From assembly GCF_001721685.1 (NCBI RefSeq), contig NZ_CP012502.1, forward strand, positions 2,666,001 to 2,730,000: 64,000 bases of DNA. Direction: 5' to 3'. Under the pieces are notes generated by a model, which was not told the origin of the DNA, ran no database searches, and saw only the letters and a program-made list of their open reading frames with translations. This DNA is from Salisediminibacterium beveridgei. GTDB taxonomy: Bacteria; Bacillota; Bacilli; Bacillales; Salisediminibacteriaceae. Positions 16,151-32,451 of the stretch are shown piece by piece. How positions within the stretch are numbered: the first letter of the stretch is position 1; the number at the start of each line of letters is the position of its first letter. The position numbers were made by a program, and so were the translations under genes.

Positions 16151-16930
16151 CTATTCAATCCGCTCACCATGAACCAGGAGTCTGTATTCATTTGAACGAT
16201 AGGGATGGCAGGTGAGTAGCGTTGCCAGATCCTTCCCTCTCTGAATATTCAATGCCGAAGTCTCATGCGGTAATATGACATTTGTATCGTAAACCCGGTA
16301 GGATAATTTACCATCCGACGTATAGATATGAAAGACGTCTCCCGTCCGGAGCCGATCGAGATTTTTGAACATTTCTTTCGTTGCCATCCCCCGGTGTCCT
16401 GCCAGAACCGTATGTGTATTCGGACCTCCACCCGGGAATGATGACCCTTCAACCTGACCGACTCCTTTTGCCAAAACCGGTCTGCTTGCGCCTAAATAAA
16501 TCGGCATTTTCAAACTCAATTTAGGAATTTCAATGGAGGCAAACATGCCGGAAGACAAGCCATGTGAATCTAACCATTCCTCTCTTTGACTGTCATCATC
16601 ATCCGCACCAGTTTCCGGATTATAATCCCAATCCGCATACGCATTATTGTCATTTAATTCGGCCGTGGATTCACCCGAAGTTGCGTCCTCTGTATCCGTA
16701 AAAAATGGATCTATAAAACCCGTGTTATTCGTTGCCAGCTGCCGGTTATAATGATCGACCAGCTCCCTTTCCTGCGTACGGTCATGCTCGGGCATCTTAT
16801 CAAATGTTTCATACAGAGCAGAGACACTGGAGGCAAAGAAATAATCGTTAATCATTCTGCTGACTTGCGGATACAGAAATATCATCAGGCCCGTCATAAA
16901 CAAAATCAGGATGATTCCGTATTTTTTCAT
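16151..16930 (-). CDS. Class C (pilus) sortase, second copy
   Basis: Catalytic His179 (LAGHRGM), Cys241 (LATLLTCHPY) and Arg250 (NEYRLLVHG) are present. A lid motif DPF at 74-76 is typical of pilus-polymerising class C enzymes. One N-terminal membrane segment is present, but unlike the upstream sortase it has no C-terminal membrane helix. Its ATG overlaps the stop of that sortase (ATGA), with GGAGGT inside the preceding codons, so the two are translationally coupled. It probably polymerises the pilin or attaches the pilus to the wall. Confidence 0.88.
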   Translation of the reverse strand: MKKYGIILILFMTGLMIFLYPQVSRMINDYFFASSVSALYETFDKMPEHDRTQERELVDHYNRQLATNNTGFIDPFFTDTEDATSGESTAELNDNNAYADWDYNPETGADDDDSQREEWLDSHGLSSGMFASIEIPKLSLKMPIYLGASRPVLAKGVGQVEGSSFPGGGPNTHTVLAGHRGMATKEMFKNLDRLRTGDVFHIYTSDGKLSYRVYDTNVILPHETSALNIQRGKDLATLLTCHPYRSNEYRLLVHGERIE

Positions 16931-17775
16931 GGTGCACCTCCTTCTTCAAGCGCTGAGAGCGCCTTTTTCCGGCGCTTCAGATAGTACACGGTTGCAAGGA
17001 TTACGGAGATCACGATCGCTGCGATCAGATAAGGATTCAGGCCCGCACCTGCATCATCCGGGACAAACCCTGCCCGTTCCGGACCATAAGGGTCATATGG
17101 AACGCGCTCTCCGATCACAAGCATCCGGTGCGTATTCAGCATATACGGGTCACATGTGATCAGTGTAGCCAGATCTTTGTCCGGGCTGATTTCCAGGCTC
17201 TCTGTCTCATAGGGTTCCACAATTTTAACTTCTCCCACCTGATAGGCCATGATTTCATCAAGTGTGTTGATCAGGAAGATATCCCCCTCCATCATTTCGT
17301 CAAGCTCCCTGAACATTTTTGTGCTCGGCAGACCGCGGTGCCCTGTCAGGACGGTGTGTGTACCCACACCACCCACCGGTAATGAAGTGTTGGACATGTG
17401 GCCCACGCCTTGAGATAAGACATCATCACTGGTTCCGTGGTAGATGGGTAACTTGATATCGATTTTCGGGATTTCCACATAGCCCATCACTTCGCCGATA
17501 TTCAGTAAATTGTAATAGCCCGTCTCTCCATCCGTTCCATCGGATTCAAACGGATCTGACAGGAGGGAAGGCATACCGTACAGCTGCTCGTTATATGCCT
17601 GTGCATTGGCACGCTCGGTCTCCAGGTCAGCCGTATCCATGTTGCTGATCATTTCATCATAATCAGAGGTGATCGTCACGTGCATGTTCGTAAAATACCA
17701 GTTACTGATAAACGGAAAAAGAAAGATACTGAAACCCGCCACGAAGATCACAATCAAGATGACTTTTCGTTTCAT
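16927..17775 (-). CDS. Class C (pilus) sortase, first copy
   Basis: The sortase fold carries His146 (LTGHRGL), Cys208 (LATLITCDPY) and Arg217 (NTHRMLVIG), a lid motif DPF at 74-76, an N-terminal signal-anchor and a C-terminal membrane helix (about 247-267) followed by KRRKK. These are hallmarks of class C sortases that link pilins through a Lys of the pilin motif. It lies downstream of the major pilin, beyond a hairpin that may limit read-through. Confidence 0.9.
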   Translation of the reverse strand: MKRKVILIVIFVAGFSIFLFPFISNWYFTNMHVTITSDYDEMISNMDTADLETERANAQAYNEQLYGMPSLLSDPFESDGTDGETGYYNLLNIGEVMGYVEIPKIDIKLPIYHGTSDDVLSQGVGHMSNTSLPVGGVGTHTVLTGHRGLPSTKMFRELDEMMEGDIFLINTLDEIMAYQVGEVKIVEPYETESLEISPDKDLATLITCDPYMLNTHRMLVIGERVPYDPYGPERAGFVPDDAGAGLNPYLIAAIVISVILATVYYLKRRKKALSALEEGGAP

Positions 17776-17821
17776 ACTCTCCTCCTCCTTCTATGTAAGT
17801 CATTGAAGTTTATTTTAGAAA

Positions 17822-17850
17822 AGAGAAAGGGAGCAGAGCGCCCTTTCTCT
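17822..17850 (-). terminator. Hairpin between major pilin and sortases (attenuating terminator)
   Basis: AGAGAAAGGG pairs with CCCTTTCTCT (10 bp) and on the minus strand is followed by TTTCTAAAAT. It lies inside the pilus operon, so partial termination would make much pilin mRNA and less sortase mRNA. Confidence 0.65.
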
Positions 17851-17868
17851 TCCTGTTGTTACAAATCC

Positions 17869-19461
17869 TTAAGCTTCAACACTTCTGCGGCGTCTGGCAT
17901 ACATCACCAGGGCTGCAGTCATCAGCAGCAAGCCGATGATGGTGAACCAGGTGGAACCGATGCCGCCTGTTTCAGGAATCACGAAACCTGTTGGTGTGTT
18001 GGCAATTTCAACTGTGACAGTTTCTCCGTCTTCAGTCAGTTCTACTGTAATATCCTGTAGAAGTAATCTGAATTCTGATGGCGCCTCAATCTCAGTCAAC
18101 GTGTACGTGCCAAGCGGCAGGTCATTCCATTCCGCTGCGCCATCTCCGTCCGTTGTCTTGGTACTGATTAATTCTCCATCTGCATCTCTCAGTTCGAAAA
18201 CGGCTCCTTCAAGTTTTTCAGAACTGTTACCTGCTACGAATTTGTCAATGAGTATGCCACCTGCTGTAGCCTTGACTAGTGCACTGTCATCAACAGTGCC
18301 AGTCACGCTGTGCACATTCTCAAAATCCACGAATGCGGTGTTTGGAACACCTAAATAATCCGGATCGCCATCGGCTCTGATATAGGCATCGTAAGTGAAG
18401 GTTACAAAACTGTCGCCCTCAAGCTCACTGAAATCAGTTGCCGTCCACGTCAGTTCATTTCCAATTCTTGAGAAAGTAAACCCTAACGGTTCATTTGCAC
18501 TTTCTTCAACATAGTTCAAATCACTGAATAGACTGTCGGAGATGACAAACGATTTGTAGGATTTGATGTCATCCGGCAGATACACCTTCACACTGTAGGT
18601 GAACGGAGTTAATCTGTTAATTTCCAGTGATTCTTGCCCTTCAACTAATTTTTCAACATCCGGTTTCAGGAAGTTCTCAACCGTAACATCTTCAACCTTA
18701 CCAGATCCGTTCATTACTGTTCCGGATTCAGTAATGCTGAATTCATGCTTGGTTTCACCGGTTCCTACATAGCCATCCGGCGGACCAACTTCCAGGAAGT
18801 AATAATCTCCGAAGAGTAAGCCATCGGTCTGGAATTTACCGTCTTCACCAGTTGTGAATTCTCCTAAACTTACATCTGGATCGCCGACTTTAAACAGCTC
18901 GAATATTACGCCTGGAAGGAACCCTTCCATACCATCAGTCTTCGTCAGTTCAACGGCACCCCGGATAATTTCGTTTTTAGGGTACACATGAACATGGTAA
19001 TTCAAGCTTTTTCCATCGGCATTCGTCATTGGAATATCGATAGAGAAGTTGTCCGGATTCAAGTTCACGTTTGGTGGTCCATCCACTTCATCCACTTCAT
19101 AGCGACCTAATTTAAGATCGGCGAAGAATGCAATCCCGTCCGATCCCGTTGTCTCCGTTCTTGTTTCACCATTTTCAACCGGATCCCATGAGTCCGTCTC
19201 GGCGTTATATTTGTGCGTCATGGTCACTTCATAGACAACGCCTGCAAGAGGCTCGCCAGGTGGGCGATCTTCTCCAGTGAGTTCACTGCCATCGCCTCTA
19301 TCTCCTGGATTAAGTGGATCCTGTGCCAGTTTATGAATCGTTAAGCTCCCCATTTTTCCAGGATCAGGATCAGGAGCAACTGCAGCAAAACCTGCTGGCA
19401 AGACCAATGTGAAGAACAAAACCACCATAAGGAATATACTCAATACTTTTTTCATTGACAT
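17869..19461 (-). CDS. Major pilin backbone subunit, LPXTG-type (IPETG)
   Basis: A signal peptide is followed by about 490 residues of SpaA-type and isopeptide (D2-type) beta domains. VHVYPKN ends at residue 163 and supplies the pilin-motif Lys162 for intermolecular linkage. E-box-like LTEIEAP occurs near the C-terminus. The sorting signal is IPETG (495-499), a hydrophobic helix and an RRRR tail. It is secreted, polymerised by the class C sortases downstream and anchored to peptidoglycan. The ATG at 19461 (AAGGAG 10 nt upstream) is preferred to a GTG nine bases earlier that touches the ribosome binding site. Confidence 0.88.
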   Translation of the reverse strand: MSMKKVLSIFLMVVLFFTLVLPAGFAAVAPDPDPGKMGSLTIHKLAQDPLNPGDRGDGSELTGEDRPPGEPLAGVVYEVTMTHKYNAETDSWDPVENGETRTETTGSDGIAFFADLKLGRYEVDEVDGPPNVNLNPDNFSIDIPMTNADGKSLNYHVHVYPKNEIIRGAVELTKTDGMEGFLPGVIFELFKVGDPDVSLGEFTTGEDGKFQTDGLLFGDYYFLEVGPPDGYVGTGETKHEFSITESGTVMNGSGKVEDVTVENFLKPDVEKLVEGQESLEINRLTPFTYSVKVYLPDDIKSYKSFVISDSLFSDLNYVEESANEPLGFTFSRIGNELTWTATDFSELEGDSFVTFTYDAYIRADGDPDYLGVPNTAFVDFENVHSVTGTVDDSALVKATAGGILIDKFVAGNSSEKLEGAVFELRDADGELISTKTTDGDGAAEWNDLPLGTYTLTEIEAPSEFRLLLQDITVELTEDGETVTVEIANTPTGFVIPETGGIGSTWFTIIGLLLMTAALVMYARRRRSVEA

Positions 19462-19466
19462 CTTTC

Positions 19467-22400
19467 TCACTCTCCTTTTATGATATTTTCAGTTCTTTTT
19501 CTGCCTCTGATCCATGCACTGAGTGCTGTGAGCATTACGATAAGCCCAGCCAGATAGAATCCCAATGTGCCCATACCGCCAACCGCCGGGATTTCGTATC
19601 CCCTGAGGGTGTTTGCCACGGTAAGTTCAATCTCAAAATCTTCTGCTGTAATACTGAATTCGATCGGATTCAGAAGAAGCCTGTATCCATCCGGTGCTTT
19701 TGTCTCGACCAGCTTATAGTCGCCGATCGCAAGTTCGTCAAACATGAGTTTACCGTCGCTGCCTGTTACGCCACTGTCGATCACTTTTCCGTCTGCATCC
19801 TGCAGATCAAATTCAGCACCTGAAAGGACAGCTTGGGTCACGCTATCGATTTTAGTAAGGACAACCTGACCTGTAATCGGTGGCGTCACCGTAACGATAT
19901 TCGATTCCAACGATCCTGTGGTGCCGGAACCGTTCGTGTAATCAAGGAATGCCTGGTTATCGATTCCGATTTCGCCTGGTGCATCTGCATTGATTTGAAC
20001 AGTGAGTTCTACAAGCAGATTGTCAATGCCATCGAGTCCTTCGAAGTCTGTAATACTGATCGTGATCAGCTGACCATCAATCTCAAGGTCATAGCCTTCG
20101 AACAGATTATCATCTGCGAATACCGATACATCTTCCTCACCGTCAATTGTCAGCATGTCATCGAGTTCGTCTGTGATCACAAAACTCGAGTAGTCTGCAA
20201 TGTCTTTCGGCAAGTTGACCGACAGATCAAACGTGAAGTCTGTTTCCCGGTCAATCGTTAATTCTGTTTCTGTTTTATTGATCTTCTTTTCGATCATCGC
20301 TTCTTTGAAGTTCGTGATGGAGAATGGGTTCTCTTCGGTTACTTCCATACCCATGACCTTCACCGGTACATTCCCATCATCATCGGCGTCTTCATCGTCA
20401 CCGACCAGTACCGAGTAATACCTGCCGTCCACGACATACCCATCGACTGTCTTCGTTTCCTTGAGGAAATATAAGCCTGTCTTCAGATCTTCAAAGACGA
20501 TTCGGCCATCTACTACAACTTCCGGTCCGGCAGCGACTGTCTCACGGTCCGCATTGAACAGTGTGTATTCCACACCATCAAGGAATTGACCGTTCTCATC
20601 CAGTTTTTCCAGGTGAAGATTTGCGAAGAACTCGAACTCTTCCTCGATACCTGATCCTTTGGTAGAAGCGCAAGAGTAAAACTGAGCCGTGAAGTTCGAT
20701 CCGGTGATTCGCGCACAATTCTTGAATTCTTCAAAGCCATCCAATCTCTGTGTCTTCACCAGGATAAGGTAGGTGGTATCCAATCTGACATTACTGCCAA
20801 AATCCACATCGAAATTGTCTTTTTTCGTGTTAAGCCTGACTGCAGATGGACCATTACCTGGTGTCACTTGGGTCCCGTCCTCCAAATCAAACGTGCCGTC
20901 CTGCACTTGTATTTGAAAAATCCTGACGTCACTGTCGGGATCATTTGGTGTGAAGTAATCAACGGTCTGAGTGAACCTGCCATCTCCATCCGAATGACCA
21001 ACGAAACTGTCATTAAAAGAGATACTTTCAAATTCCCTCACTTTTGGATCATCTTCTGCGTTAACCACAATCGCCCATTCGATATAGTCTTCCGTGACAT
21101 CATAAACGTACTTTTGCAGGAAATTCTCATTCACTCTAAGATCAAACTGAATAACCGCCTCAGTTTCGAATGTCTGGGGACACAATCCGTCTCCGTAGAA
21201 AGCGTTATATTCCAAATCGTACGTGCCTGCGGTCAGGACTTCACCAGTATTCCTCTCAAGGAGTCTGATACTGAATGTCCCGCTTTCAGGGCCGTCAACG
21301 CCTAACGTAAAGGTCGCCGTTTGCTCAAAGACCTCAATTTGTCCGACTGATTCACCGTCACTCGTTCTGAACAAGTGGCTCGTCATCACAAAACGGAATA
21401 ATTCTTTTGGAAGCTCGAGGGTAAACTGATCCCCCGCTTTTGCGTCCTCCGGCACTTCCCATGTACCAAATACATCAATAAACTGCTGTTTGACAGAAGG
21501 GTCATCAGGAAGCCTGTAGAAGTCGGTATTATCAACAGACGTAACACCCCACTCGCAGCCCTCATCAAAATTCGTAAAGGATACTTCTTCTTCCGTTTCG
21601 ACTGCCATCATATTCAGAGGTTCCGGCTCTGTTGTATCGATTGGATTCAGCGATGAATACATGTCCAATAGTTCATCGTCTGTCAGATCTCTAATCCAAT
21701 ACATCATCAGAAGCTCGTACTCTTCGGTGGTCAATTCAGTGTCACCGAGATCGAGATACTCGTTTAATTCCTCCATGGACAAATCGAGCATCCAGCCATA
21801 GATGAAGGCTTCCATAAACTCTCTTGAGAGTTCTTCCTCATCGGAGGATTCGGATTCTTCCGGTGATTTACCAGAGTCATCCACCTTCTCGAATTTGGAT
21901 TGATCGGTCTCTTCAGTTACCTCCTCTTTTTCTTCAGCTGGAGTCTCCTCATTGGAGAGACTGTCTTCATCGCTTTCCTTATCTTTTCTGCCTTCGTCGC
22001 TCTCGTCTTTACTATCATCTTTCTCTTCTTCTTTCATTTCTTCTTTGCTTTCTTCTTCCTCTTCTTTCACTTCCTCTGTACTTTCCTCTTTGCTTTCTTC
22101 TGTACTTTCCTCTTTCACTTCGGAGTCTTTATCAGACTTTTTGTCTTCGGAACCCTCCGCTGATTCGGATTCACCGTCTTCCTTATCAGTTGACAGCTCC
22201 TCTTCTTCAGGTGTATCGTCATCTAAAGCGTCTGATGCTTCTTCTTCAGGCGCCTCCACCGTTTCCGGCTCATCGGCCTTTGGTTCTGGACCGTTGTAGT
22301 TATTTGTCACAGAGAACCCATTAATTACAATTTCGTAATGTTCCAGATTATCTGCTTTCAACTGATATTGATGCTTTTCGCCGTTGCTGTTATATTCGGG

Positions 22401-23000
22401 CAATTCTTGAAACACATGTGAATTCGTGTCGCCGCTTAAGGTTGTACTCTGAACTGTTTCGCCTGAATTTGCGTTTACTATGGATAATGACTGCTCAGGA
22501 TGAATCACGCCTTCGGGTACGTTGTTCCAACTGCGCTGTACTTCAAGATTGACAGTGGTATCAGGAATAACCTGTGCTGTCTGACTTGCTGAAAACGTGC
22601 CATCTTGATACGCTGCCGTTGCAGAGAGTGTATAGTTTATTTGACCCGGGTCGATAATCTTACCCGTGACAAGTAACGACACTGCTCCTGCATCTTCGTT
22701 CATTTGAATCTTATAGCCGTTACCTGATGACTGAACCTCCGCTTTCCCATTAAGGACGGTTGGCGCTGCGCCTTTTTCAAGACCAGAGCCCAAACTCAAA
22801 TCTGCGCTGATTTCTTCAGCAGATCCTTGCGACTTGTTGATGTCGACTAACCAGGTCACTTCCGATTGATTCGAATCCTGCAATGAAACATCCAGTCTTC
22901 CTGGTTGATCCGAACTGCCTGCTACTGTCTGCAGTGCGGGAACAAAGAATTGAGTGAGTAGCAGTAAAATCAGCCCAATATACAATAGTTTGTTTCTCAT
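19467..23000 (-). CDS. Large acidic cell-wall adhesin, probable pilus tip or minor pilin
   Basis: The 1177-residue protein has a signal peptide and a beta-rich N-terminal region. A Glu/Asp/Ser/Lys-rich stretch follows (about 237-395, with repeats such as KEESTEE). Then come a large adhesin-like domain (about 480-820, with several Cys), SpaA-type domains (around KLDENGQFLDGVEYTLFNA and TKIDSVTQAVLSGAEFDL) and a D2-type isopeptide domain. The sorting signal is IPAVG (1137-1141) with a membrane helix and an RGRKR tail, a departure from LPXTG. It is first in the operon, five bases before the major pilin start. The acidic region suits a saline habitat or acts as a wall-spanning stalk. The ligand is unknown. 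Confidence 0.85.
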   Translation of the reverse strand: MRNKLLYIGLILLLLTQFFVPALQTVAGSSDQPGRLDVSLQDSNQSEVTWLVDINKSQGSAEEISADLSLGSGLEKGAAPTVLNGKAEVQSSGNGYKIQMNEDAGAVSLLVTGKIIDPGQINYTLSATAAYQDGTFSASQTAQVIPDTTVNLEVQRSWNNVPEGVIHPEQSLSIVNANSGETVQSTTLSGDTNSHVFQELPEYNSNGEKHQYQLKADNLEHYEIVINGFSVTNNYNGPEPKADEPETVEAPEEEASDALDDDTPEEEELSTDKEDGESESAEGSEDKKSDKDSEVKEESTEESKEESTEEVKEEEEESKEEMKEEEKDDSKDESDEGRKDKESDEDSLSNEETPAEEKEEVTEETDQSKFEKVDDSGKSPEESESSDEEELSREFMEAFIYGWMLDLSMEELNEYLDLGDTELTTEEYELLMMYWIRDLTDDELLDMYSSLNPIDTTEPEPLNMMAVETEEEVSFTNFDEGCEWGVTSVDNTDFYRLPDDPSVKQQFIDVFGTWEVPEDAKAGDQFTLELPKELFRFVMTSHLFRTSDGESVGQIEVFEQTATFTLGVDGPESGTFSIRLLERNTGEVLTAGTYDLEYNAFYGDGLCPQTFETEAVIQFDLRVNENFLQKYVYDVTEDYIEWAIVVNAEDDPKVREFESISFNDSFVGHSDGDGRFTQTVDYFTPNDPDSDVRIFQIQVQDGTFDLEDGTQVTPGNGPSAVRLNTKKDNFDVDFGSNVRLDTTYLILVKTQRLDGFEEFKNCARITGSNFTAQFYSCASTKGSGIEEEFEFFANLHLEKLDENGQFLDGVEYTLFNADRETVAAGPEVVVDGRIVFEDLKTGLYFLKETKTVDGYVVDGRYYSVLVGDDEDADDDGNVPVKVMGMEVTEENPFSITNFKEAMIEKKINKTETELTIDRETDFTFDLSVNLPKDIADYSSFVITDELDDMLTIDGEEDVSVFADDNLFEGYDLEIDGQLITISITDFEGLDGIDNLLVELTVQINADAPGEIGIDNQAFLDYTNGSGTTGSLESNIVTVTPPITGQVVLTKIDSVTQAVLSGAEFDLQDADGKVIDSGVTGSDGKLMFDELAIGDYKLVETKAPDGYRLLLNPIEFSITAEDFEIELTVANTLRGYEIPAVGGMGTLGFYLAGLIVMLTALSAWIRGRKRTENIIKGE

Positions 23001-23420: not shown

Positions 23421-24179
23421 GTGAATAACGAGTACCTCTTCAACCAGCAGGTACAAGTGGAGCTTGTCATGTTTGACCCGTCAGAAATTTCAGAATTATT
23501 GGTTACTTATGAAAAGGAAGCTTTTCATTGTATTCTGAACGAAGAGTTTGACCTGGTTGAAGAACACCTGTCCAACTTGTTTTTTGCCATTGTCAAAAAA
23601 GAAAACGTGAATCACCTGCTGATCCTGAAGACCTTTTACACCATCTTTATTTGTGATCTTTTTCACTTGACCAGACTGAAAGAACACAATCAACTGCACT
23701 TCATCGTTCAGCCGTTTGCCCTGATCTCCACGATTCAACAGTGGAACGAAGTCTCACACTTTCTGAGCTCAATTCCCTGGATCATTAAAAAAATCAATGA
23801 AATTCTCGTTTCCGTTAATCATTCACCCCACCACTCCCAACTGGTGGCACAGGCAATCAATGTCATCCATCAACAGATTAAAAACCCGGATCTCTCGGTT
23901 CAATGGCTTGCTGAACAATTAGATGTAACACCTGCTCACTTATCCTATACATTCAGTCAGCAAAATGGATTCAGTCTTTCATCGTTTATCCGGGAAACGA
24001 AAATCAATGCCGTGCTCTTTGACATTGAGTACTCGAACCTGTCACTGAAAGAAATTGCAGAAGAGTACAACTTCAGGAACTACAGCAACTTTATCCGCTC
24101 CATGAAAAAACAATGCGGCATCACACCGACACAGTATAAGAAGAACTGCATCGCGATTACAGCAGATGCTCAGATGTAA
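23421..24179 (+). CDS. AraC-family transcriptional regulator
   Basis: The last 100 residues form the AraC double HTH (DLSVQWLAEQLDVTPAHLSY and LSLKEIAEEYNFRNYSNFIR, ending GITPTQYKK). The N-terminal 150 residues show no cupin motif I can name and may bind a ligand or mediate dimerisation. The GTG start has AAAGGAGGGG upstream. Transcribed away from the pilus operon with a shared control region, it is the likely regulator of that pilus, as AraC-type proteins are in some streptococcal pilus islands. Confidence 0.85.
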   Translation: MNNEYLFNQQVQVELVMFDPSEISELLVTYEKEAFHCILNEEFDLVEEHLSNLFFAIVKKENVNHLLILKTFYTIFICDLFHLTRLKEHNQLHFIVQPFALISTIQQWNEVSHFLSSIPWIIKKINEILVSVNHSPHHSQLVAQAINVIHQQIKNPDLSVQWLAEQLDVTPAHLSYTFSQQNGFSLSSFIRETKINAVLFDIEYSNLSLKEIAEEYNFRNYSNFIRSMKKQCGITPTQYKKNCIAITADAQM

Positions 24180-24248
24180 TAAAAAATCGGAACGTTAAGG
24201 AGAGGATCAGCCATTTTGACCTATCGGAAAACGCCATCAGACAAAAAA

Positions 24249-24311
24249 ATGCCCTGTGCTAAAACCGGCTTTGTAAAAAGACGATGTTAGCACAGGGCAT
24301 TTTATTTTTTT
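24249..24311. terminator. Bidirectional terminator between araC-type gene and tad operon
   Basis: ATGCCCTGTGCTAA and TTAGCACAGGGCAT form a perfect 14-bp stem around a 24-nt loop. It is flanked by an A-run on one side and TTTATTTTTTT on the other. Confidence 0.88.
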
Positions 24312-24326
24312 AAATGAAGCTTTTCA

Positions 24327-25247
24327 TTAAAATGTCTCGAGAATTTGAATCACGGCCGGTCCGAGAAGAATAATAAAGATCCCGGGAAAGATAAACAAGA
24401 CGAGAGGGAACATCATTTTGATCGGAGCTTTCATGGCCGATTCCTCCGCCCGCTGCTTTCGCCTCGCTCTCACTTCATCCGATTGAATTCTCAGCACCTG
24501 CACCATCCCGATCCCCAGCTGTTCTGCCTGGATGATGCTGCCGATGAACGCATGAATATCATCCACATTCAAGCGCTTTTTGACACCGGTCAGTGCTTCT
24601 CGCCGGGTTTTGCCAAGCCGGATTTCCTCCAGACACCGCTGGAATTCCGTCGACAGGGTTCCCTCTTTTTTCGCAACCACCTTACTCATGGCTGCGTCAA
24701 AACCAAGGCCGGCTTCAATGCTGACGGTTAACAGATCGAGAAAATCCGGCAGTTCCTTAACGGCTGATTTTTTGCGTTCCGCCGTTTTACTCTTCAAATA
24801 GAAGGAGGGAACATATTGGGCAATCAGAAAACCGACGCCTGCGTAAAGAGTGATTCCCATGACTGTCCCACTGGCTGCAAAACCTAGTAATGCAAAAACA
24901 CCGGTAATGACGGTGGCAACCACCAGCTTGGCGATTCTGAATTCAACGACAGTCATTTTCATCGGATTGCCCGCTTCTTCAAGCTTCACTTCGAGCTTTT
25001 GAAATTGTTTATCGGATGTCCGCTGTTTAAACAGCCGTCTTACCTTCATCCAAAACGGTTTCAAGATCCGCTTTGATAAACTTCCCTGCAGCTCTTCCTC
25101 CTGAAAAGGCGCTTCCACCGCGGCCGTCCGCTCCGGATTAAAAATCGCGGCAATCCGTTCCTCATGGACTTTCACACGTTCTTTTTTCAGTAAATACAAG
25201 CCATACATAATGAAGAGCATGGTCAGGGCATAAGTGATAATGGCCAT
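24327..25247 (-). CDS. tadC: Tad pilus inner-membrane platform protein TadC
   Basis: This 306-residue member of the type II secretion F superfamily has an N-terminal helix, a central segment LPDFLDLLTVSIEAGLGFDAA that is the T2SSF signature, and C-terminal helices (FPLVLFIFPGIFIILLGP). It forms the membrane platform of the Flp pilus with TadB and closes the operon, before a terminator. It is 3 nt from tadB. Confidence 0.88.
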   Translation of the reverse strand: MAIITYALTMLFIMYGLYLLKKERVKVHEERIAAIFNPERTAAVEAPFQEEELQGSLSKRILKPFWMKVRRLFKQRTSDKQFQKLEVKLEEAGNPMKMTVVEFRIAKLVVATVITGVFALLGFAASGTVMGITLYAGVGFLIAQYVPSFYLKSKTAERKKSAVKELPDFLDLLTVSIEAGLGFDAAMSKVVAKKEGTLSTEFQRCLEEIRLGKTRREALTGVKKRLNVDDIHAFIGSIIQAEQLGIGMVQVLRIQSDEVRARRKQRAEESAMKAPIKMMFPLVLFIFPGIFIILLGPAVIQILETF

Positions 25248-25250
25248 GTT

Positions 25251-26237
25251 TCACACCTCGATTGCTGTGACTTTTCTAATTAACAGAAAGCCGATCAGAC
25301 TGGATACGGCAGCCAAGGCGATCAGTGCCATGCCGACAGGATGGGTAAACATCACCATAACGTAGTCCGGCTCAATCAGAAACAGTATCATCCCGAGGGC
25401 AATGGGGAGGCTGCCAACGACTGCACCGGACATCCGTCCCTGCGCAGTCAGAGTTTTGATCTGTCCCTGCACCTGGATGCGATCGCGGATCGTCTGACTG
25501 ATCTTCTCCAGAACGGTGGCCAGGTTGCCACCGATCTGCCGCTGAATGATGATGGCCTGAATCATCAGGTTCAAATCCTCACTGGGCACCCGGTCCTTAA
25601 ACCGGTTCAGGGCTTCTTCCACGGTCATGCCGTACTGCATTTCCTTGACGACGAGCCCGACCTCTTCTTTCATTGGCGATGACGCTTCCTCTTCAACGGA
25701 TTTCAAAGCCTGGGTAAAACTGAATCCCGCCCGCAGGGCACCGACGACCGTCGTAATCATATCCGGCAGATGATCATTGAATGCCTTGATCCGTTTACGT
25801 TTCTTGGATTTGACGACCATACCTGGAATCATCCGGCCAATGAAGGCACCAATCACGAGCAAGAGGATGCTGTCACTGATCAGGTAGAGGATCCCTGCCG
25901 TCAGCATTAGGGAAATCCATCTGAACATGACATATTCTTCCGGCTTCAGGGGCACCCCCGCCTGGCTTAACAGTAATTCAATGACTTCGTTCTTATTGTT
26001 CTTCTTCAAAGCCGCCCGAATCCGCCGCTTCGCTTGAGTGAAATTCGGCACGGGGAGCTTTCGTTTTTGCTTTACTTCATCCTTGGTTGAACCCGGGTCA
26101 GGCTGGTCACGCAGATACCGGTTGACCCGCTCTTCCATCACGGTTTCTTTTTTGACAAACAGCTGCAATATGCTGAGGAAAACCAGTGTACTTGTGATCA
26201 GGAGCATTGTCAGTAATAAAGGGGTCATCCTGATCAC
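25251..26237 (-). CDS. tadB: Tad pilus inner-membrane platform protein TadB
   Basis: This 328-residue T2SSF-domain protein has [42 protein letters not shown] and [18 protein letters not shown], the TadB signature, with membrane helices at both ends. Its start overlaps the tadA stop by 4 nt. It pairs with TadC to form the assembly platform driven by the TadA ATPase. Confidence 0.9.
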
Positions 26238-27703
26238 TCCTCATTGGGGATGAAAACATCCGGGGAAATCGTAATGCCGGCATGTTCAAGCCGTTCGTAA
26301 AATTTGGGCCGGATGCCTGTCGGAACCAGTTTGCCGATAATATTGCCGTGGGTATCTTTGCCCCGCTGTTCATAAGTAAAGATATCCTGCAGGACAATCA
26401 CATCGCCTTCAAGTCCCTGCACTTCGGTGATTTTCACGATTTTACGTGACCCGTCCTTGAGCCTGGACTGCTGAATGATGACGTCGATGGCTCCGGCGAT
26501 CTGTTCACGGATCGCTTTCACAGGAAGGTCAACCCCTGCAAGCAGGACCATCGTTTCAAGCCGGGCGATCATATCCCGGGGGCTGTTCGAGTGCCCGGTG
26601 GCAAGTGATCCGTCGTGTCCGGTGTTCATGGCCTGAAGCATATCGAGGGCTTCGCCGCCCCGGACCTCACCGATGACGATCCGGTCCGGACGCATCCGAA
26701 GGGAGTTCCGGACGAGATCGCGAATGGAGATCGCTCCCTGCCCTTCGATATTCGGCGGACGGGACTCCAGCCTGACTACGTGGTCCTGACCGAGCTGCAG
26801 TTCTGCCGCATCTTCAATGGTCACGATCCGCTCGTCGTTTGGAATAAAGCTTGACAGCACGTTCAGGGTCGTTGTTTTCCCTGAGCCGGTACCGCCGCTG
26901 ACAAAGATATTCAATCTTGCTTTTACACACGCATCCACAAATTCCGCCATCTCATCTGTCAATGTCCCGAACTGTACCAGATCACTGATGGTCAATGGAT
27001 CGGTGGCAAACTTCCGGATCGTGATGGTCGGTCCGTTTAAGGCCAGCGGTGGAATGATCGCATTCACCCGGGATCCGTCGGGGAGCCGGGCGTCCACCAT
27101 CGGACTGCTTTCATCAATTCTGCGTCCGATGGGGGCAACGATTTTTTCGATGACATTCAATACGTGTTCATCATCCCGAAACGTCACCCCGGAGAGGATG
27201 ATCTTGCCTTTTTTTTCGCAGTAGACCTGATCCGGACCGTTGACCATCACTTCAGAAACGTCTTCGTCCAGGAGGAGCGGATTGATGGGACCAAAGCCTG
27301 TCAGATCGTTTTTCAAATCCGCAATAATGGTTCTGCGATCCATATTGAACTTGAACTGCTCATTTTCCTTGATAATTTCAAGGGCGATTTCATCCAGTTT
27401 TTCGATGACTTCATCGATATCGTCTTTCCCTTTCATTTCTTCGAGCACCCGGTTATGAAGCTTGTTTTTCAATTCCTTTGCTTCTTTGTTTTCAACCGGT
27501 TTCTCCTGCTTTTTGGGCGCTGATTCGTGTTTAATCGCCAATTCTTTCAGCTTTGGCGGCTTTTCTTCCACTATTCGTTCTGCTTTTTCAGCAGGTTTTT
27601 CATCGCTCTTTTCCACGGGCTTTTCTTCTTGCGCGTTCTCTTTTACTGGTGTTTCCGGTTGTTCAGATTGCTTTTTTTCCTGTAAGCGATCGAGTAATCC
27701 CAT
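26234..27703 (-). CDS. tadA: Tad pilus assembly ATPase TadA/CpaF
   Basis: The first 90 residues are charged and of low complexity (Lys/Glu/Pro). The rest is a type II/IV secretion ATPase: [16 protein letters not shown] is Walker [14 protein letters not shown] the Asp/Glu box, [17 protein letters not shown]alker B, and [14 protein letters not shown] the His box. It powers polymerisation of the Flp pilin at the cytoplasmic face. Confidence 0.93.
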
Positions 27704-27719
27704 CCATCCTCACCTCCTG

Positions 27720-28547
27720 TCATCCGTTTTCAGTCAGCCACTTCTTAAAAAAAGATGGCTTTTCGGGCTTGGCTGTCATGTTTCGCTTCGGCTGGTGTTC
27801 CTCGTTCTGATCCAAAGGCTGATTGATCGCCTGCGCCATTTTGAATACCGCTTTTGCAAGATCCGATTTCGATTGACTGATGACAAAAGGCAGCCCGAGA
27901 TTTAAGGACTGGCTTGCGATTTTATAATTATTCGGGAGAAAGTGGGCATCTTCAAAACCGAGCATTTCGGGGATTTCTTCCCCTTTCATAAGGCTCTCCA
28001 TCGTGAATCGGTTGACGACGAGAGAGGTTTTATCCCGGTAGTTTAACTCCTTCATCGTCTCAAGCATCAGCCGGGTGTTCTTGAGTGCGCTCATTTCCAG
28101 ATTCGTCACGATGAGGATGTCATCTGCCATTTCCATTGTCTCAACGGTCAGATCCAAAAGTCCGATGCCGTTATCAATAATGATGTAATCATGACTTCGT
28201 TTCAGGTCGTTCAGAACCACTTTCATGGCGTCTGTCGTAACCATTTCCGCAAATTCCGGCCGTTCAGGTGCAGGCAGTACCCGGACGCCTGAAGCATGTT
28301 CGGTCAAATAACGCATCACCGTATTCGGCTTTGCCATGCCCTGATCCTCAACCAGTTCCTTGATCGAATCTTCCGGCTGAAGGTCCATCGACAGACTCAC
28401 GTCACCAAACTGCAAGTCCCCATCGACAATAGCCACATCCAGATTCGTTTTTCCAAGTGCCACAGCCAGATTGACGGAAATTAACGTTTTTCCGATCCCG
28501 CCTTTTGCACCACATACGGCGATGACCCGCCCCATTTTTTCCGTCAT
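27720..28547 (-). CDS. tadZ: MinD/ParA-like ATPase of the Tad system (TadZ/CpaE)
   Basis: The deviant Walker A AVCGAKGGIGKTLISVNLA and VAIVDGDLQFGDVSLSMDL place it in the CpaE/TadZ group, which localises the Tad machine at the pole or membrane. I moved the start to the ATG at 28547 because GGAGG lies 8 nt upstream; the longer frame begins at a GTG without a site. It precedes tadA by 16 nt. The N-terminal receiver-like domain common in proteobacterial CpaE is absent. Confidence 0.85.
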   Translation of the reverse strand: MTEKMGRVIAVCGAKGGIGKTLISVNLAVALGKTNLDVAIVDGDLQFGDVSLSMDLQPEDSIKELVEDQGMAKPNTVMRYLTEHASGVRVLPAPERPEFAEMVTTDAMKVVLNDLKRSHDYIIIDNGIGLLDLTVETMEMADDILIVTNLEMSALKNTRLMLETMKELNYRDKTSLVVNRFTMESLMKGEEIPEMLGFEDAHFLPNNYKIASQSLNLGLPFVISQSKSDLAKAVFKMAQAINQPLDQNEEHQPKRNMTAKPEKPSFFKKWLTENG

Positions 28548-28592
28548 CCTGCTCACCTCCGCGACTGACACATCAATCGACTGATTCTTTTC

Positions 28593-29270
28593 TTACTCTT
28601 CTTCATGTATGAGGCTCGAGTGCAATGTGAGATGAATGGCCCCTTTTTCATAGGCATCAATGACGGTCACCGCATCTTCCGGGAGTAATTCCAGCGTCAC
28701 GGCGACATACTCCCGGGTCCCTGTTTCAGACAGCTCTTTCTCCATACGCTGACCGACAGCGAGGACACGGACATCTTCGAGAATGACCGTTGATTCATTG
28801 ACTTCTTCGTCATCGACCACAACGGTTTCAGACAGCACGATGTCCACCTGATCCTCCGGGTCAATCAGCTGGGTGACCAGCTGGACATTGGATGCTCCGA
28901 TGGATACGGCACGGTGTCCGTCCTGAATCTTTTCGGAAACCTGCACCGTCGACTGTTCCGATGTTTTCAGACGGTGACTGAGAAGTATTTCCCCTTCTTC
29001 GATATACGTTGATGCAAATGAGCCTGCCACTTCCTCCGCCGACTTAACGGCCATCGGATGCACATCCGCTTCATATACCGTATCCGTTGTAATCATGTCA
29101 TCGGTAATGACCGTATTTTCCTCAATGGGTGACGCGGCCTTAATGACTTCCACTGTGTCAGGAGCCTCCTGCCCCGTTGCCTCATCGGCTGCAGTGATGT
29201 ATTGATAAAATAAAGCGGTTGTAATGATCCCCATGACAACGGCCAGTAACAGGACAAAACGAGCTCTCAT
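28593..29270 (-). CDS. cpaB: CpaB/RcpC-like SAF-domain protein of the Tad system
   Basis: One N-terminal membrane helix (LLLAVVMGIITTALFYQYI) is followed by a SAF domain (VIKAASPIEENTVITDDMI, then GSFASTYIEEGEILLSHRL) and the RcpC region (AVSIGASNVQLVTQLIDPEDQVDIVL). It probably binds peptidoglycan or stabilises the extracellular part of the pilus machine. An ATG start at 29270 fits AGGTG upstream; the previous gene stops within that site. Confidence 0.82.
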   Translation of the reverse strand: MRARFVLLLAVVMGIITTALFYQYITAADEATGQEAPDTVEVIKAASPIEENTVITDDMITTDTVYEADVHPMAVKSAEEVAGSFASTYIEEGEILLSHRLKTSEQSTVQVSEKIQDGHRAVSIGASNVQLVTQLIDPEDQVDIVLSETVVVDDEEVNESTVILEDVRVLAVGQRMEKELSETGTREYVAVTLELLPEDAVTVIDAYEKGAIHLTLHSSLIHEEE

Positions 29271-29279
29271 CTCTTTCAC

Positions 29280-30179
29280 CTACTCCATCAGACTGATTGT
29301 AAACGCTCCGCGGTATATGGCACCTTCTTCAACATAACCATGGGTGGTCCGTTCAATAAATTTTCCTCTGATCTTCGTATCCTTCGGGTCCAGCGGTTCG
29401 AGAATATAAAAGTGGGCAAATCCGGTGATTTCCACTTCTTTCACCTGATTCCCGACGGGGTCAATCGGCTTATAGACCGGGATCAGAATCGTCCGGCCGC
29501 ATTGCCGGTCATACGGATCGTCGCAAAGACTGATCAGATGATCAATGGCCCTTCGCGTCGGATTGGCGATGTTCCCTGTTTGCGTACCGACGATCTCACC
29601 AATCGAAAATTCTTCTTCCGAGCCATACTTCAACGTATCTTCGTATGTGTTTGCCCCTTTGCCCTCCAGGGCGAGGATCCCGAAATTACCCGTGTCCACG
29701 TCTTCTTCATCCACTCTCAGCAAATACTCTTCTTCATATTCCAGTTCGATGGATTCATCGATGCCAAGTGGCGCAACGCCGTCTGCACGTCCAACCGGCC
29801 CGATACCGGCTTTCGCTTCCGCAGTGATTTCCACGGCATCAATTCCGAAGATCATCATAAACGCCGTCTGCATGTCTCTCGATAACGTCAGGGTGACCCG
29901 TTCTTCCATGAAAACCGCCAGCTGGTCAACAGAAGCCGCTTCCCCGTGCTGATCGAGCACTTCATCAACGATCAGTTCCACTTCCATCTCATCTTCCATC
30001 AGTTCCTGTGCGCCGGACAGCACCGCAGCATTGGCTGCTTTTTGCAGCGACGTCTTCTCCATATAGAACATGCCACCGTCTATGACGAGACCCACCATGC
30101 CGAGAAAGGTGGTGAACCCGAGTGAGACAATCATCAGCACGTTCCCACGTTCATTCTTCACATGGCGAAACGGGTTCAT
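29280..30179 (-). CDS. TadG-like pilus assembly / pseudopilin protein
   Basis: The N-terminus (NERGNVLMIVSLGFTTFLGMVGLVIDGGMFYMEKTSLQKAANAAVL, here cited as landmarks) is the TadG-type start: ERG before a hydrophobic helix, then a segment rich in Ala and Asp. The remaining 250 residues are exposed, acidic and contain two Cys (LCDDPYDRQCGR) that could form a disulfide. The gene lies between tadE and cpaB. It likely acts as a minor pilin or stabiliser. Confidence 0.75.
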   Translation of the reverse strand: MNPFRHVKNERGNVLMIVSLGFTTFLGMVGLVIDGGMFYMEKTSLQKAANAAVLSGAQELMEDEMEVELIVDEVLDQHGEAASVDQLAVFMEERVTLTLSRDMQTAFMMIFGIDAVEITAEAKAGIGPVGRADGVAPLGIDESIELEYEEEYLLRVDEEDVDTGNFGILALEGKGANTYEDTLKYGSEEEFSIGEIVGTQTGNIANPTRRAIDHLISLCDDPYDRQCGRTILIPVYKPIDPVGNQVKEVEITGFAHFYILEPLDPKDTKIRGKFIERTTHGYVEEGAIYRGAFTISLME

Positions 30180-30190
30180 CACAGCACCTC

Positions 30191-30574
30191 CTACTCGATC
30201 CGGATCGTTGAATCAGCACGTAAGTGGATCGGCCCACTGAACACCTGGCTGGCAAATGGGGTAATCGGATCCACATCGTACCCGAGTGTAATCGTGATAT
30301 ATTCCCCTGATTTGCGAGCACTTTCGTCCGGTGAAATCGACACGCTCAGCTGACTGCCGTCTCCCGTTGCGAAATGATCCGATGCGAACTCGGCAATTTC
30401 ACCGTCATTGTAACCGAATCCACCGACACGCACCGTTTCCTGCACCGTAAAATGAAGCCCGCTATAGGTGTACAACACACGCCCAAAGTCCACAATCCCT
30501 ACAATTAATAAAAGCAATAACGGTAATACCAGTGCGAATTCAGCCAGGGATTGCCCTTTTTCATTCTTCAGCAT
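30191..30574 (-). CDS. tadE: TadE-like minor pseudopilin
   Basis: This 127-residue protein has the TadE signature KNEKGQSLAEFALVLPLLLLL: a Gly processing site with Glu at +5 in front of a hydrophobic helix, then VDFGRVLYTYSGLHFTVQE. It should be processed by the prepilin peptidase encoded directly upstream, whose stop overlaps this ATG. Confidence 0.87.
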   Translation of the reverse strand: MLKNEKGQSLAEFALVLPLLLLLIVGIVDFGRVLYTYSGLHFTVQETVRVGGFGYNDGEIAEFASDHFATGDGSQLSVSISPDESARKSGEYITITLGYDVDPITPFASQVFSGPIHLRADSTIRIE

Positions 30575-31086
30575 CAGAGCATCACCCCGGGGAAAAAGAA
30601 TGCCCCGGCTGCGCCAAGCACAATGGCCACCCCGTAAGGAAATGCGGTTTGTTTCAGGAGCCTATCTTTATCAAGCTCCGGTTTGATTCCATATTTCATC
30701 AGTTTCACCGCACGGAAACTGCGCTTCAGTCCTTCGATCATGCGCCCGCGGCTGATGATCATCACCAGTCCGATCGCCCCGCCGATCAGGGCCATAAACA
30801 GTGCCGTCATCAGGACAAAACCCGCCCCCTGCACTGCACCGATAAACGCCAGGAGCTTGACATCGCCCGCTCCCATGCCACCGATCAAATATGGAATCAA
30901 CAGGATCAGAAACCCCGTCAGAAGCCCCAAAAGGCTGGTCGTAATACCTGACCAGCCAAACAGGATTCCGTTCAAGAGAAAGGCCATGACGACGCCTGGG
31001 AACAATACCTTGTTATAGATTTTCCGACGGGTGATGTCGGTGAAAAAACAGATGATCAGAACGCTCAATAACAGGATTTCCAGCAT
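30574..31086 (-). CDS. tadV: Prepilin peptidase (CpaA/TadV, family A24)
   Basis: This polytopic membrane protein has the two catalytic aspartates of A24 proteases: CFFTDITRRKIYN near the N-terminus and GGMGAGDVKL in the middle (GxGD motif). It cleaves the leader of Flp and TadE-type prepilins. The ATG at 31086 has AGGAGG 8 nt upstream, better than the ATG six bases earlier. It follows the flp gene by 40 nt. Confidence 0.88.
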   Translation of the reverse strand: MLEILLLSVLIICFFTDITRRKIYNKVLFPGVVMAFLLNGILFGWSGITTSLLGLLTGFLILLIPYLIGGMGAGDVKLLAFIGAVQGAGFVLMTALFMALIGGAIGLVMIISRGRMIEGLKRSFRAVKLMKYGIKPELDKDRLLKQTAFPYGVAIVLGAAGAFFFPGVML

Positions 31087-31125
31087 TGTCATGTCCTCCT
31101 TTTAATAGTCAATTAATTATTAACC

Positions 31126-31308
31126 TCATTCAGTATTTACTTCAGTTTGAAAACTTTCAACAATATTATCGAAAACAGTTTCAATTTCATTTCCAAAAAC
31201 CACGAGAACTGCTATAACACCAACCGCAATAACACCCAGCACCAACGCATACTCCGCCATACCCTGTCCTTCTTCTTCTGTGAGTAAATTCTTCATCATT
31301 TCCATCAT
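31126..31308 (-). CDS. flp: Flp-family major type IVc pilin
   Basis: This 60-residue prepilin has a short leader MMEMMKNLLTEEEG, cleavage expected before QGMAEYALVL (Glu +5, Tyr +6, the Flp motif), and a hydrophobic helix VIAVGVIAVLVVFG with a short acidic tail. Small size, motif and position before tadV are diagnostic. It forms the pilus fibre after export through the TadABC machine. Confidence 0.93.
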   Translation of the reverse strand: MMEMMKNLLTEEEGQGMAEYALVLGVIAVGVIAVLVVFGNEIETVFDNIVESFQTEVNTE

Positions 31309-31351: not shown

Positions 31352-31696
31352 TTACGCTTCCAACAGCCACTGTTGCCCTGGCTGAATCTTCTCGGCTGTG
31401 ACTTTACCTTCTGCCAACTCTACGACTTTTTTTGCGCCCTTTGCATGCATCCCCATTTTCCAGGGAGCCAGACTGCATTCGGTTGCAACCACCACGTCTT
31501 CAGCATCAAGGTAGACGACATCGATTGGGATCTTCATGAACCATGTGTGAATGGACCGGCAGGGAGATAGATAGAGCCCGCTCTGCTCATTGACCGCTTT
31601 CGTAAACGTGAGACCTCTCAACCGACTCCAGAACGTTTCCGCTCTCCTGACATCGTTTGCAATCAGCTGGCCATTATCCTTTCGAATGACCTTCAA
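31352..31696 (-). CDS. DUF192 family protein heading the tad operon
   Basis: This 114-residue protein has the DUF192 pattern: ETFWSRLRGLTF, then SIHTWFMKIPIDVVYLD, and a C-terminal VELAEGKVTAEKIQPGQ. It has no signal peptide. The start is TTG with a G-rich site upstream. It sits 43 nt before flp, and DUF192 genes are often linked to tad loci. Function is unknown. The riboswitch terminator lies just before its start, so it is the first gene under that control. Confidence 0.8.
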   Translation of the reverse strand: MKVIRKDNGQLIANDVRRAETFWSRLRGLTFTKAVNEQSGLYLSPCRSIHTWFMKIPIDVVYLDAEDVVVATECSLAPWKMGMHAKGAKKVVELAEGKVTAEKIQPGQQWLLEA

Positions 31697-31715
31697 TCCC
31701 GCACCCCCCCATCAA

Positions 31716-31752
31716 CAAAAATAAACCCTGCCTTTTACCAAAAGGAGGGTTT
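31716..31752 (-). terminator. Intrinsic terminator of the riboswitch expression platform
   Basis: On the minus strand AAACCCTCCTTTT and AAAAGGCAGGGTTT form a long stem (one bulge) followed by ATTTTTG. It lies between the c-di-GMP aptamer and the DUF192-flp-tad genes. A second hairpin (ACACC...ATCCATTT with AAATGGAT-GGTGT, about 31763-31802) sits between aptamer and terminator. Confidence 0.85.
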
Positions 31753-31810
31753 GTAAAGTTAACACCATCCATTTATAGAACAAAATGGATATAATGGTGT
31801 AAACTATGCA

Positions 31811-31909
31811 CTGACTCCTTCGGTAACTGGCTGGCATCGGACGATTTCCCTTGTCCGGAAGCCCCTCTAGCTTTGCGTCCCTGACTTTCATCAGGTTTGC
31901 CTTTATCGA
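31811..31909 (-). promoter_or_regulatory. Cyclic-di-GMP-I (GEMM) riboswitch aptamer
   Basis: On the minus strand the core elements of the GEMM-I class appear in order: GGCAAACC, a helix capped by a GAAA tetraloop (CCTGAT-GAAA-GTCAGG), GGGACGCAAAGC, a second arm with a GGAC...GTCC helix, and GCCAGCCAGTTACCGAAGG, which matches the tetraloop-receptor side and closing strand. It senses the second messenger c-di-GMP. A terminator follows 60 nt downstream and then the DUF192-flp-tad operon, so ligand binding probably changes read-through into the pilus genes. The direction of the switch (on or off) cannot be told by eye. Confidence 0.9.
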
Positions 31910-32451
31910 GAACCAGTGATCTGTAGTAATCAGTACTGATCTCTTAGTTAATATGATAATCGATGGAAGACCAAAGCATAATCCTTCAATAGGATCAATC
32001 TTTCTTTACCTTCATTTACTTTTAATTCCATTATTTCTTGTTATATGTGTATAAAATCTGTCGAATGTCTCATATAATCAATAATATTGCCATTATATGG
32101 TTTTAAAATTCCCTGAATAGCACGGATAAAAGTACAGGATTCAAGAAATCATTTCTTTTATTTCGACACAGTTTGCAGTTATTTTCCAAAAGGTGCGGCA
32201 TTCCCTGTTTCGATTCGTTGATCACCCGAAGCCTGTATACAGGGGTTCAACCCTTTACCGCAAAGACTTTCGACAATTTCTGCTTTTGTTCAGACGGTGG
32301 TATTCGTTGTTTTTCATTATCGGGCATTCAGGACCATGAATGGATCATACATTGGGTTTGATGGAAAAAAACGAATGAACCGATCTATTTGTCTTGGTTC
32401 TTCTCTAGATACAGGCAGATTGTCATGTGGTTTGACATTCACCCCTCTGCA
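31910..32451. other. Intergenic region, riboswitch promoter side, no gene recognised
   Basis: The tad operon promoter should lie in the part nearest the riboswitch, but no convincing -35/-10 pair was found. The rest shows no ORF with a ribosome binding site. A 12-bp palindrome CCTGTATACAGG occurs at 32232-32243. Short minus-strand coding-like stretches suggest decayed DNA. Confidence 0.4.

Follow-up and report, generated by a model that had tools for sequence, protein, structure and literature searches.

Tad pili are widespread, and to our knowledge their regulation in Gram-positive bacteria has been little described. The locus considered here, on the minus strand of a 64-kb stretch of Salisediminibacterium beveridgei DNA (the window), raises the question of what a highly structured leader does in front of such a pilus operon. 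An earlier note on this DNA had proposed that a class I c-di-GMP (GEMM-I) riboswitch sets Flp pilus production by transcription attenuation, and attenuation stays the best reading of an aptamer and a terminator that precede a Tad operon. The note gave no direction; the conserved antiterminator described below points to repression of the pilus operon by c-di-GMP. The explanation favored here, with a probability of roughly 0.8, is that c-di-GMP would switch off transcription of the Tad/Flp operon through this leader.

The Tad/Flp operon

The leader is followed by ten genes in the order DUF192-flp-tadV-tadE-tadG-cpaB-tadZ-tadA-tadB-tadC (Table 1). Their Pfam matches support the earlier description of a complete Tad/Flp operon, with the provisos that Flp falls under its family cut-off and that TadZ is named by position. 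The flp product carries, by sight, the processing motif GMAEYALV. The monoderm Tad (type IVc) gene set, as given in the excerpted text of PMC6916266, is represented by a pilin, a prepilin peptidase, two platform proteins, an assembly ATPase, TadZ/TadG and minor pilin genes. The locus is a Tad/Flp (type IVc) pilus operon, predicted to make pili.

Most homologous loci of the window's TadA clade begin with DUF192; in a second, lower-scoring TadA clade, the gene is found divergently oriented next to many of the Tad operons. Past tadC and an AraC-type regulator (23421-24179, plus strand), a putative sortase-pilus locus occupies 16151-23000 on the minus strand. It holds two SpaA/Cna-B pilin-like genes, one with a Gram_pos_anchor match in Pfam, followed by two sortase-like genes recognized by sight at 16151-16930 and 16927-17775.

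Table 1. Leader elements and genes of the Tad/Flp locus, in window coordinates.
Feature	Position	Strand	Basis or detail
Candidate -10 box TATCAT	31953..31958	-	by sight
5' hairpin P0	31908..31943	-	predicted from antiterminator-state folds; its 3' arm doubles as the 5' strand of the aptamer closing stem
Class I c-di-GMP (GEMM-I) aptamer	31819..31911	-	RF01051 74.3 bits; RF03167 63.8 bits; core G, A, C
Putative antiterminator 5' arm UUACCGAAGGAG (aptamer 3' end and closing stem)	31815..31826	-	cotranscriptional folds, constrained folds, duplex test
Intermediate hairpin	31757..31805	-	0/200 shuffles as low; nested inside the antiterminator
Putative antiterminator 3' arm CUCCUUUUGGUAA (terminator 5' arm and loop)	31735..31747	-	same fold series, constrained folds, duplex test
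Intrinsic terminator	31716..31752	-	stem 31723-31752; U tract 31716-31722 (AUUUUUG)
DUF192 protein, TTG start, first gene	31352..31696	-	PF02643 60.2 bits, cut-off 27
flp, major pilin	31126..31308	-	PF04964 E 8e-7, 29.2 bits against cut-off 32.2 (3 bits under)
tadV, prepilin peptidase	30574..31092	-	PF01478 63.1 bits
tadE	30191..30574	-	PF07811 54.2 bits
tadG	29280..30182	-	PF13400 42.4 bits
cpaB/rcpC	28593..29279	-	PF16976 69.2 bits; PF08666 SAF 26.7 bits
tadZ	27720..28571	-	PF13614 67.4 bits, ParA/MinD-type ATPase only; name from operon position
tadA, assembly ATPase	26234..27703	-	PF00437 225.4 bits
tadB	25251..26237	-	PF00482 71.4 bits
tadC	24327..25247	-	PF00482 73.2 bits
Terminator hairpin with T run, end of unit after tadC	24243..24300	-	by eye; hairpin at 24250-24300

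Class and identity of the aptamer

A cmscan with curated thresholds gives a single Rfam match in the whole window, at 31818-31910 on the minus strand, which is labelled RF03167 (c-di-GMP-I-GGC; 63.8 bits against a cut-off of 59, E 9.7e-13); one overlapping clan member was omitted from that output. A covariance-model search with RF01051, the check that the earlier note had named for its proposed GEMM-I aptamer, matches the minus strand at 31819-31911 with 74.3 bits, far above the cut-off of 35. The same RF01051 search of 14 control genomes gave none.

The core residues G, A and C, which we take to be G20, A47 and C92 in the usual numbering, are present in the window aptamer and, by alignment, in 59 of 61 tad-linked aptamers. 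The GGC in the name of the RF03167 family presumably denotes the core bases. The consensus of that family, GACGCgAA, has a G where c-di-GMP-I carries an intercalating A; the window reads GACGCAAAG, with A at this position. RF01051 exceeds RF03167 by 10.5 bits for the window aptamer, and it is the best Rfam family for every tad-linked aptamer that was rescanned (7 in L041-L047 and 15 in 14 further loci). On these grounds an identity as c-di-GMP-I-GGC was rejected: the element is a class I c-di-GMP (GEMM-I) aptamer, and the RF03167 label is a near-tie. It also has G at the position where an A is associated with cyclic AMP-GMP. The family and the core bases suggest c-di-GMP as the ligand.

The GNRA loop is GAAA in the window aptamer, and the usual receptor CUAAG...UAUG reads CUUCCGG...CCGAUG there in the alignment. 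Within the organism's own family (L041-L048 and the window), most tad-linked aptamers are without the usual receptor, having CUUCUG...CAAUG or similar, and retain the GAAA loop. The usual tetraloop-receptor CUAAG...UAUG is retained in the L048 aptamer.

Architecture of the leader

The leader as a whole (31712-31960) folds 4.1 standard deviations below its dinucleotide shuffles, with 0 of 200 as low. Its transcript probably starts near 31945 (AAGAGAUC), and TATNAT-like hexamers about 7 nt before AAGAGATC recur, by sight, in many homologous leaders. TATCAT is absent from the output of a consensus promoter scan, which has no minus-strand entry immediately upstream, and inspection of the leader promoter by eye assigned no sigma factor. 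Spo0A-box-like TGNCGAA sites lie within 150 nt upstream of 14 of the 61 tad leaders, against 2.6 expected from single-base shuffles (maximum 9); the window has TGTCGAA at 32162-32168 on the minus strand, further upstream of the leader.

At the 5' end, a hairpin over aptamer nucleotides 1-4 appears in the predicted fold of 41 of the 44 distinct leaders whose aptamer starts with TC. The pair types of this P0 hairpin vary at several positions, one of which is U-A in 16 cases, A-U in 6, C-G in 4, G-C in 1 and U-G in 2; the pairs were taken from predicted folds and are thus standard by construction. Taken singly, P0 beats at least 190 of 200 shuffles (10 or fewer as low) in 16 of 45 leaders. Its 5' strand resembles, by sight, the 3' strand of the aptamer closing stem. 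A role for P0 as a competitor is plausible from these folds and forms the weaker part of the model.

Downstream of the aptamer, the intermediate hairpin and the intrinsic terminator proposed in the earlier note both stand out from shuffled sequence, the former with 0 of 200 as low and the latter, for the stretch 31712-31760 at -13.8 kcal/mol, with 4 of 200; the terminator stem begins 66 nt past the aptamer, a small correction to the 60 nt given there. A simple terminator scan does not list the 31723-31752 hairpin because the stem holds a bulge. Homologous terminators occur in the leaders of relatives. The interval between aptamer and terminator, including the intermediate hairpin, shows no sequence conservation among relatives and is unaligned in the homologues, and in L157 and L172, for example, the terminator stands some 22-24 nt past the aptamer. 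For these reasons, a part for the intermediate hairpin in sequence-specific switching is not supported.

Antiterminator and predicted direction of control

The duplex between UUACCGAAGGAG and CUCCUUUUGGUAA contains one bulged U and one G-U pair. In folds of the growing transcript, this antiterminator appears as the terminator 5' arm emerges, before the terminator is complete, and it is the free minimum at transcript lengths of 217-220 nt. At full length, constrained folds give -74.1 kcal/mol with the terminator and -73.0 kcal/mol with the antiterminator, a gap of 1.1 kcal/mol that a bound ligand could tip. Folding was carried out without tertiary contacts, and the predicted fold of the terminator state differs from the textbook aptamer fold. 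When the aptamer tail was set against downstream sequence in a duplex test, 12 of 1000 shuffles were as good in the window; the same test in nine leaders gave 9 to 99 of 1000.

Because the aptamer 3' strand pairs with the terminator 5' arm and loop, the aptamer and terminator together exclude the antiterminator. The antiterminator takes the strand that is needed for the ligand and the closing stem; a bound aptamer would therefore free the terminator, which predicts an OFF switch. At low c-di-GMP, P0 would hold the 5' strand of the closing stem, leaving the aptamer 3' strand, with its ligand-pairing C, free to pair with the terminator 5' arm and loop. The terminator would then be blocked and the polymerase would read into DUF192-flp-tad. 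Once c-di-GMP is bound, the aptamer and closing stem would lock the 3' strand, the terminator would form and the operon would fall silent.

Conservation of the expression platform

Most homologous leaders carry CUUUCGGUAA or a near form in the terminator, opposite UUACCGAAAG. A second platform type, belonging to flp-first tad operons, sets ACUAUUCUUCGG against CCGAAAAUAGU with the same logic. An exact 5-nt complement of the aptamer 3' end lies in the called terminator 5' arm or loop of 33 of 58 tad leaders versus 0 of the family's 31 non-tad GEMM-I leaders; with G-U pairs allowed, the figures become 38 of 58 and 3 of 31, and the window qualifies only in this second count. The leaders are related, so these counts are not independent and serve as descriptive figures. 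The 58 are the tad leaders, out of 61, with a called terminator: automated calling gave none in L079, L202 and L207, and doubtful calls (L182, L183, L188, the first copy in L200, and L205) were kept in the counts. One non-tad leader, L032, was omitted from the 31 controls for no stated reason.

A swap test over all 58 leaders distinguishes a leader's own arms from foreign ones (0 of 2000 permutations as good). In the main platform class of 39 leaders, own arms fare no better than swapped ones, with 1022 of 2000 permutations as good, and 1650 of 2000 when only the part outside the aptamer is taken. Covariation was tested within this class and none was found among its 39 leaders because both strands are near-invariant. 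With variable spacing and a fixed antiterminator, the homologous leaders form a natural series of platforms that would be useful for studies of the switch decision in class I riboswitches.

Linkage of GEMM-I and Tad across relatives

Among the matches listed, RF01051 finds GEMM-I in 35 of the 35 genomes examined from the organism's own family, and TadA reaches E 1e-80 or better in 21 of them (32 TadA matches, a second copy in G003 lying outside the stretches examined). In all eight own-family loci with a TadA 74-100% identical to that of the window (the window, G013, G017, G018, G019, G020, G021 and G022), GEMM-I lies on the strand of tadA, 4.2-4.9 kb before it and immediately ahead of DUF192. 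Two other own-family loci, L048 and L050, have it directly before flp. A model, R1, was built from 25 aptamers, nine of them tad-linked, so that own-family R1 matches arise by construction; these aptamers were first found with RF01051. Of 14 R1 matches, two are the window genome's other GEMM-I copies (L071, L072), and two more, in tad regions, were set aside from the tad leader counts: L054 2498-2583 lies some 10 kb before tadA, and L047 13320-13404 lies downstream of the tad genes.

Of 299 genomes drawn at the level of the order, 69 have TadA at E 1e-150 or better; 77 new tadA places were considered, each with up to 8 kb upstream. The higher-scoring TadA clade (69-78% identity) comprises 40 loci, of which 36, from 36 genomes, 21 genera and 15 families, have a GEMM-I upstream on the strand of tadA; among the four that lack it, L165 extends no more than 867 nt upstream. 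The lower-scoring clade has GEMM-I at 7 of its 37 loci, two of which carry it in duplicate. A GTDB scan of 80 named loci, several with short upstream sequence, found GEMM-I in 5: Neobacillus muris, Fredinandcohnia onubensis and three Bacillota or Clostridiales metagenome genomes. Nearly all loci of one Tad clade thus show the linkage, which is sporadic in the other, and the arrangement is an inherited control system of known type. The coupling to a Tad locus that the earlier note had singled out in a "Bacillales-like" genome is thus real and is not special to this genome. The epithet fits the nearest named TadA matches, in Alteribacillus (69%), Virgibacillus (66%) and Salinicoccus (66%), a list from which very near records may be excluded.

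Two GEMM-I copies precede a single tad operon at L198 5303-5808, L200 5465-5909 and L112 4903-6159. An A at the G20 position of GEMM-I, the change associated with cyclic AMP-GMP, occurs in L205 5343-5431 (minus strand) and L207 3845-3933 (plus strand), and also in L014 and L015. The aptamers of L205 and L207 each stand in front of a second Tad operon. In G188, the genome of L205, the other Tad operon (L158) is led by a standard GEMM-I, so that each Tad system there may have a ligand of its own.

Known systems and alternative readings

With the RF01051 class at large, the window element shares a score above the cut-off, the core bases and a place upstream of a motility or surface operon; it differs in its Tad operon target, its extra conserved P0 and a tetraloop receptor that has diverged in its own family. 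Cd1, a class I riboswitch before flagellar genes of C. difficile, has the same OFF layout: as described in PMC9262584, formation of its antiterminator opens up the binding pocket, ligand binding leads to termination, and the terminator coexists with the bound aptamer. Its target differs, and the two are likened by layout, not by platform sequence. The reverse polarity, in which c-di-GMP binding would favor read-through and high c-di-GMP would bring pili, has in its favor that c-di-GMP usually accompanies attachment. It also has a precedent in excerpts of PMC6200980, where c-di-GMP turns on C. difficile pilA1 through the Cdi-2-4 riboswitch in front of it. The clostridial type IV pilus example invoked in the earlier note therefore exists, and it shares with the window a c-di-GMP riboswitch controlling a type IV pilus; neither its RNA class nor its polarity carries over, since Cdi-2-4 is a class II ON riboswitch for a type IVa-like pilus and the window element is class I, predicted OFF and placed before Tad. 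In the same excerpts, C. difficile class I riboswitches are off and class II on, with one class I gene up in transcript data. Moreover, the aptamer and terminator of the ON switch pilM are mutually exclusive (PMC9262584, in excerpt), unlike those of the window, where the terminator stands 66 nt clear of the aptamer with no overlap. The conserved pairing of the aptamer 3' strand with the terminator 5' arm predicts OFF, and an ON switch at this locus appears very improbable.

A constitutive or locked attenuator, with the operon controlled mainly by other factors, would resemble Bc1 of B. thuringiensis, which stands before mcpE; according to the available text of PMC11218506, downstream expression there hardly changed with c-di-GMP in vivo. 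Bc1 shares with the window a class I aptamer, a Bacillales-type host and terminators in a long platform, and the two further GEMM-I copies of the window genome likewise precede chemoreceptor genes. The excess of TGNCGAA sites upstream of tad leaders makes other inputs likely. Bc1 differs in having two terminators and a slight response in vivo (PMC11218506, in excerpt). Against a locked attenuator, the aptamer core and antiterminator have been kept in many genera while the interval between them drifted, a pattern not readily accounted for unless switching is under selection; this leaves a locked attenuator very improbable. The lowest probability falls to recognition of another ligand, whether through a c-di-GMP-I-GGC variant or as cyclic AMP-GMP. 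It draws on the best cmscan label, which is above its cut-off, and on the tad-linked aptamers of L205 and L207 with A at the G20 position; it is opposed by the higher RF01051 score, by the A that replaces the distinguishing G of the GGC model, by the uniform RF01051 assignment of the rescanned aptamers, and by the G kept in the window aptamer where A goes with cyclic AMP-GMP.

An OFF switch responding to c-di-GMP thus remains the preferred reading. No report of GEMM-I before a Tad operon was found in the open-licence full-text literature among the matches listed, a scope outside which most subscription papers, including the original GEMM surveys, lie. Further literature cited in this connection, likewise in excerpt, comprises PMC3543383, PMC7266159, PMC12452182, PMC13234629 and PMC12564702. 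The locus appears to present a known kind of switch in an apparently undescribed setting.

Signal supply and implications for Tad pili

GGDEF is matched 30 times and EAL 16 times in the window genome, a few of these matches being pieces of one gene, and this set would provide the means to make and break c-di-GMP. Its two other GEMM-I copies (L071 4485-6602 and L072 4975-6678, both on the minus strand) each precede a methyl-accepting chemotaxis gene; c-di-GMP would thus feed into both Tad pili and chemoreceptors.

A wider reading, held at even odds, is that an ancestral three-part switch, made up of a P0 with a mimic of the closing stem's 3' strand, a class I aptamer and an antiterminator/terminator, was inherited with one Tad clade across the order and assigns Tad pili to a low-c-di-GMP, motile, chemotactic state. 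If so, the usual pairing of c-di-GMP with pili would be reversed, and the GEMM-I regulon found in this genome would consist of two chemoreceptor genes and the Tad operon. Should the OFF direction hold across the order, Tad pili would belong to the motile phase, that is, to exploration, first contact and perhaps DNA uptake, and not to the settled biofilm.
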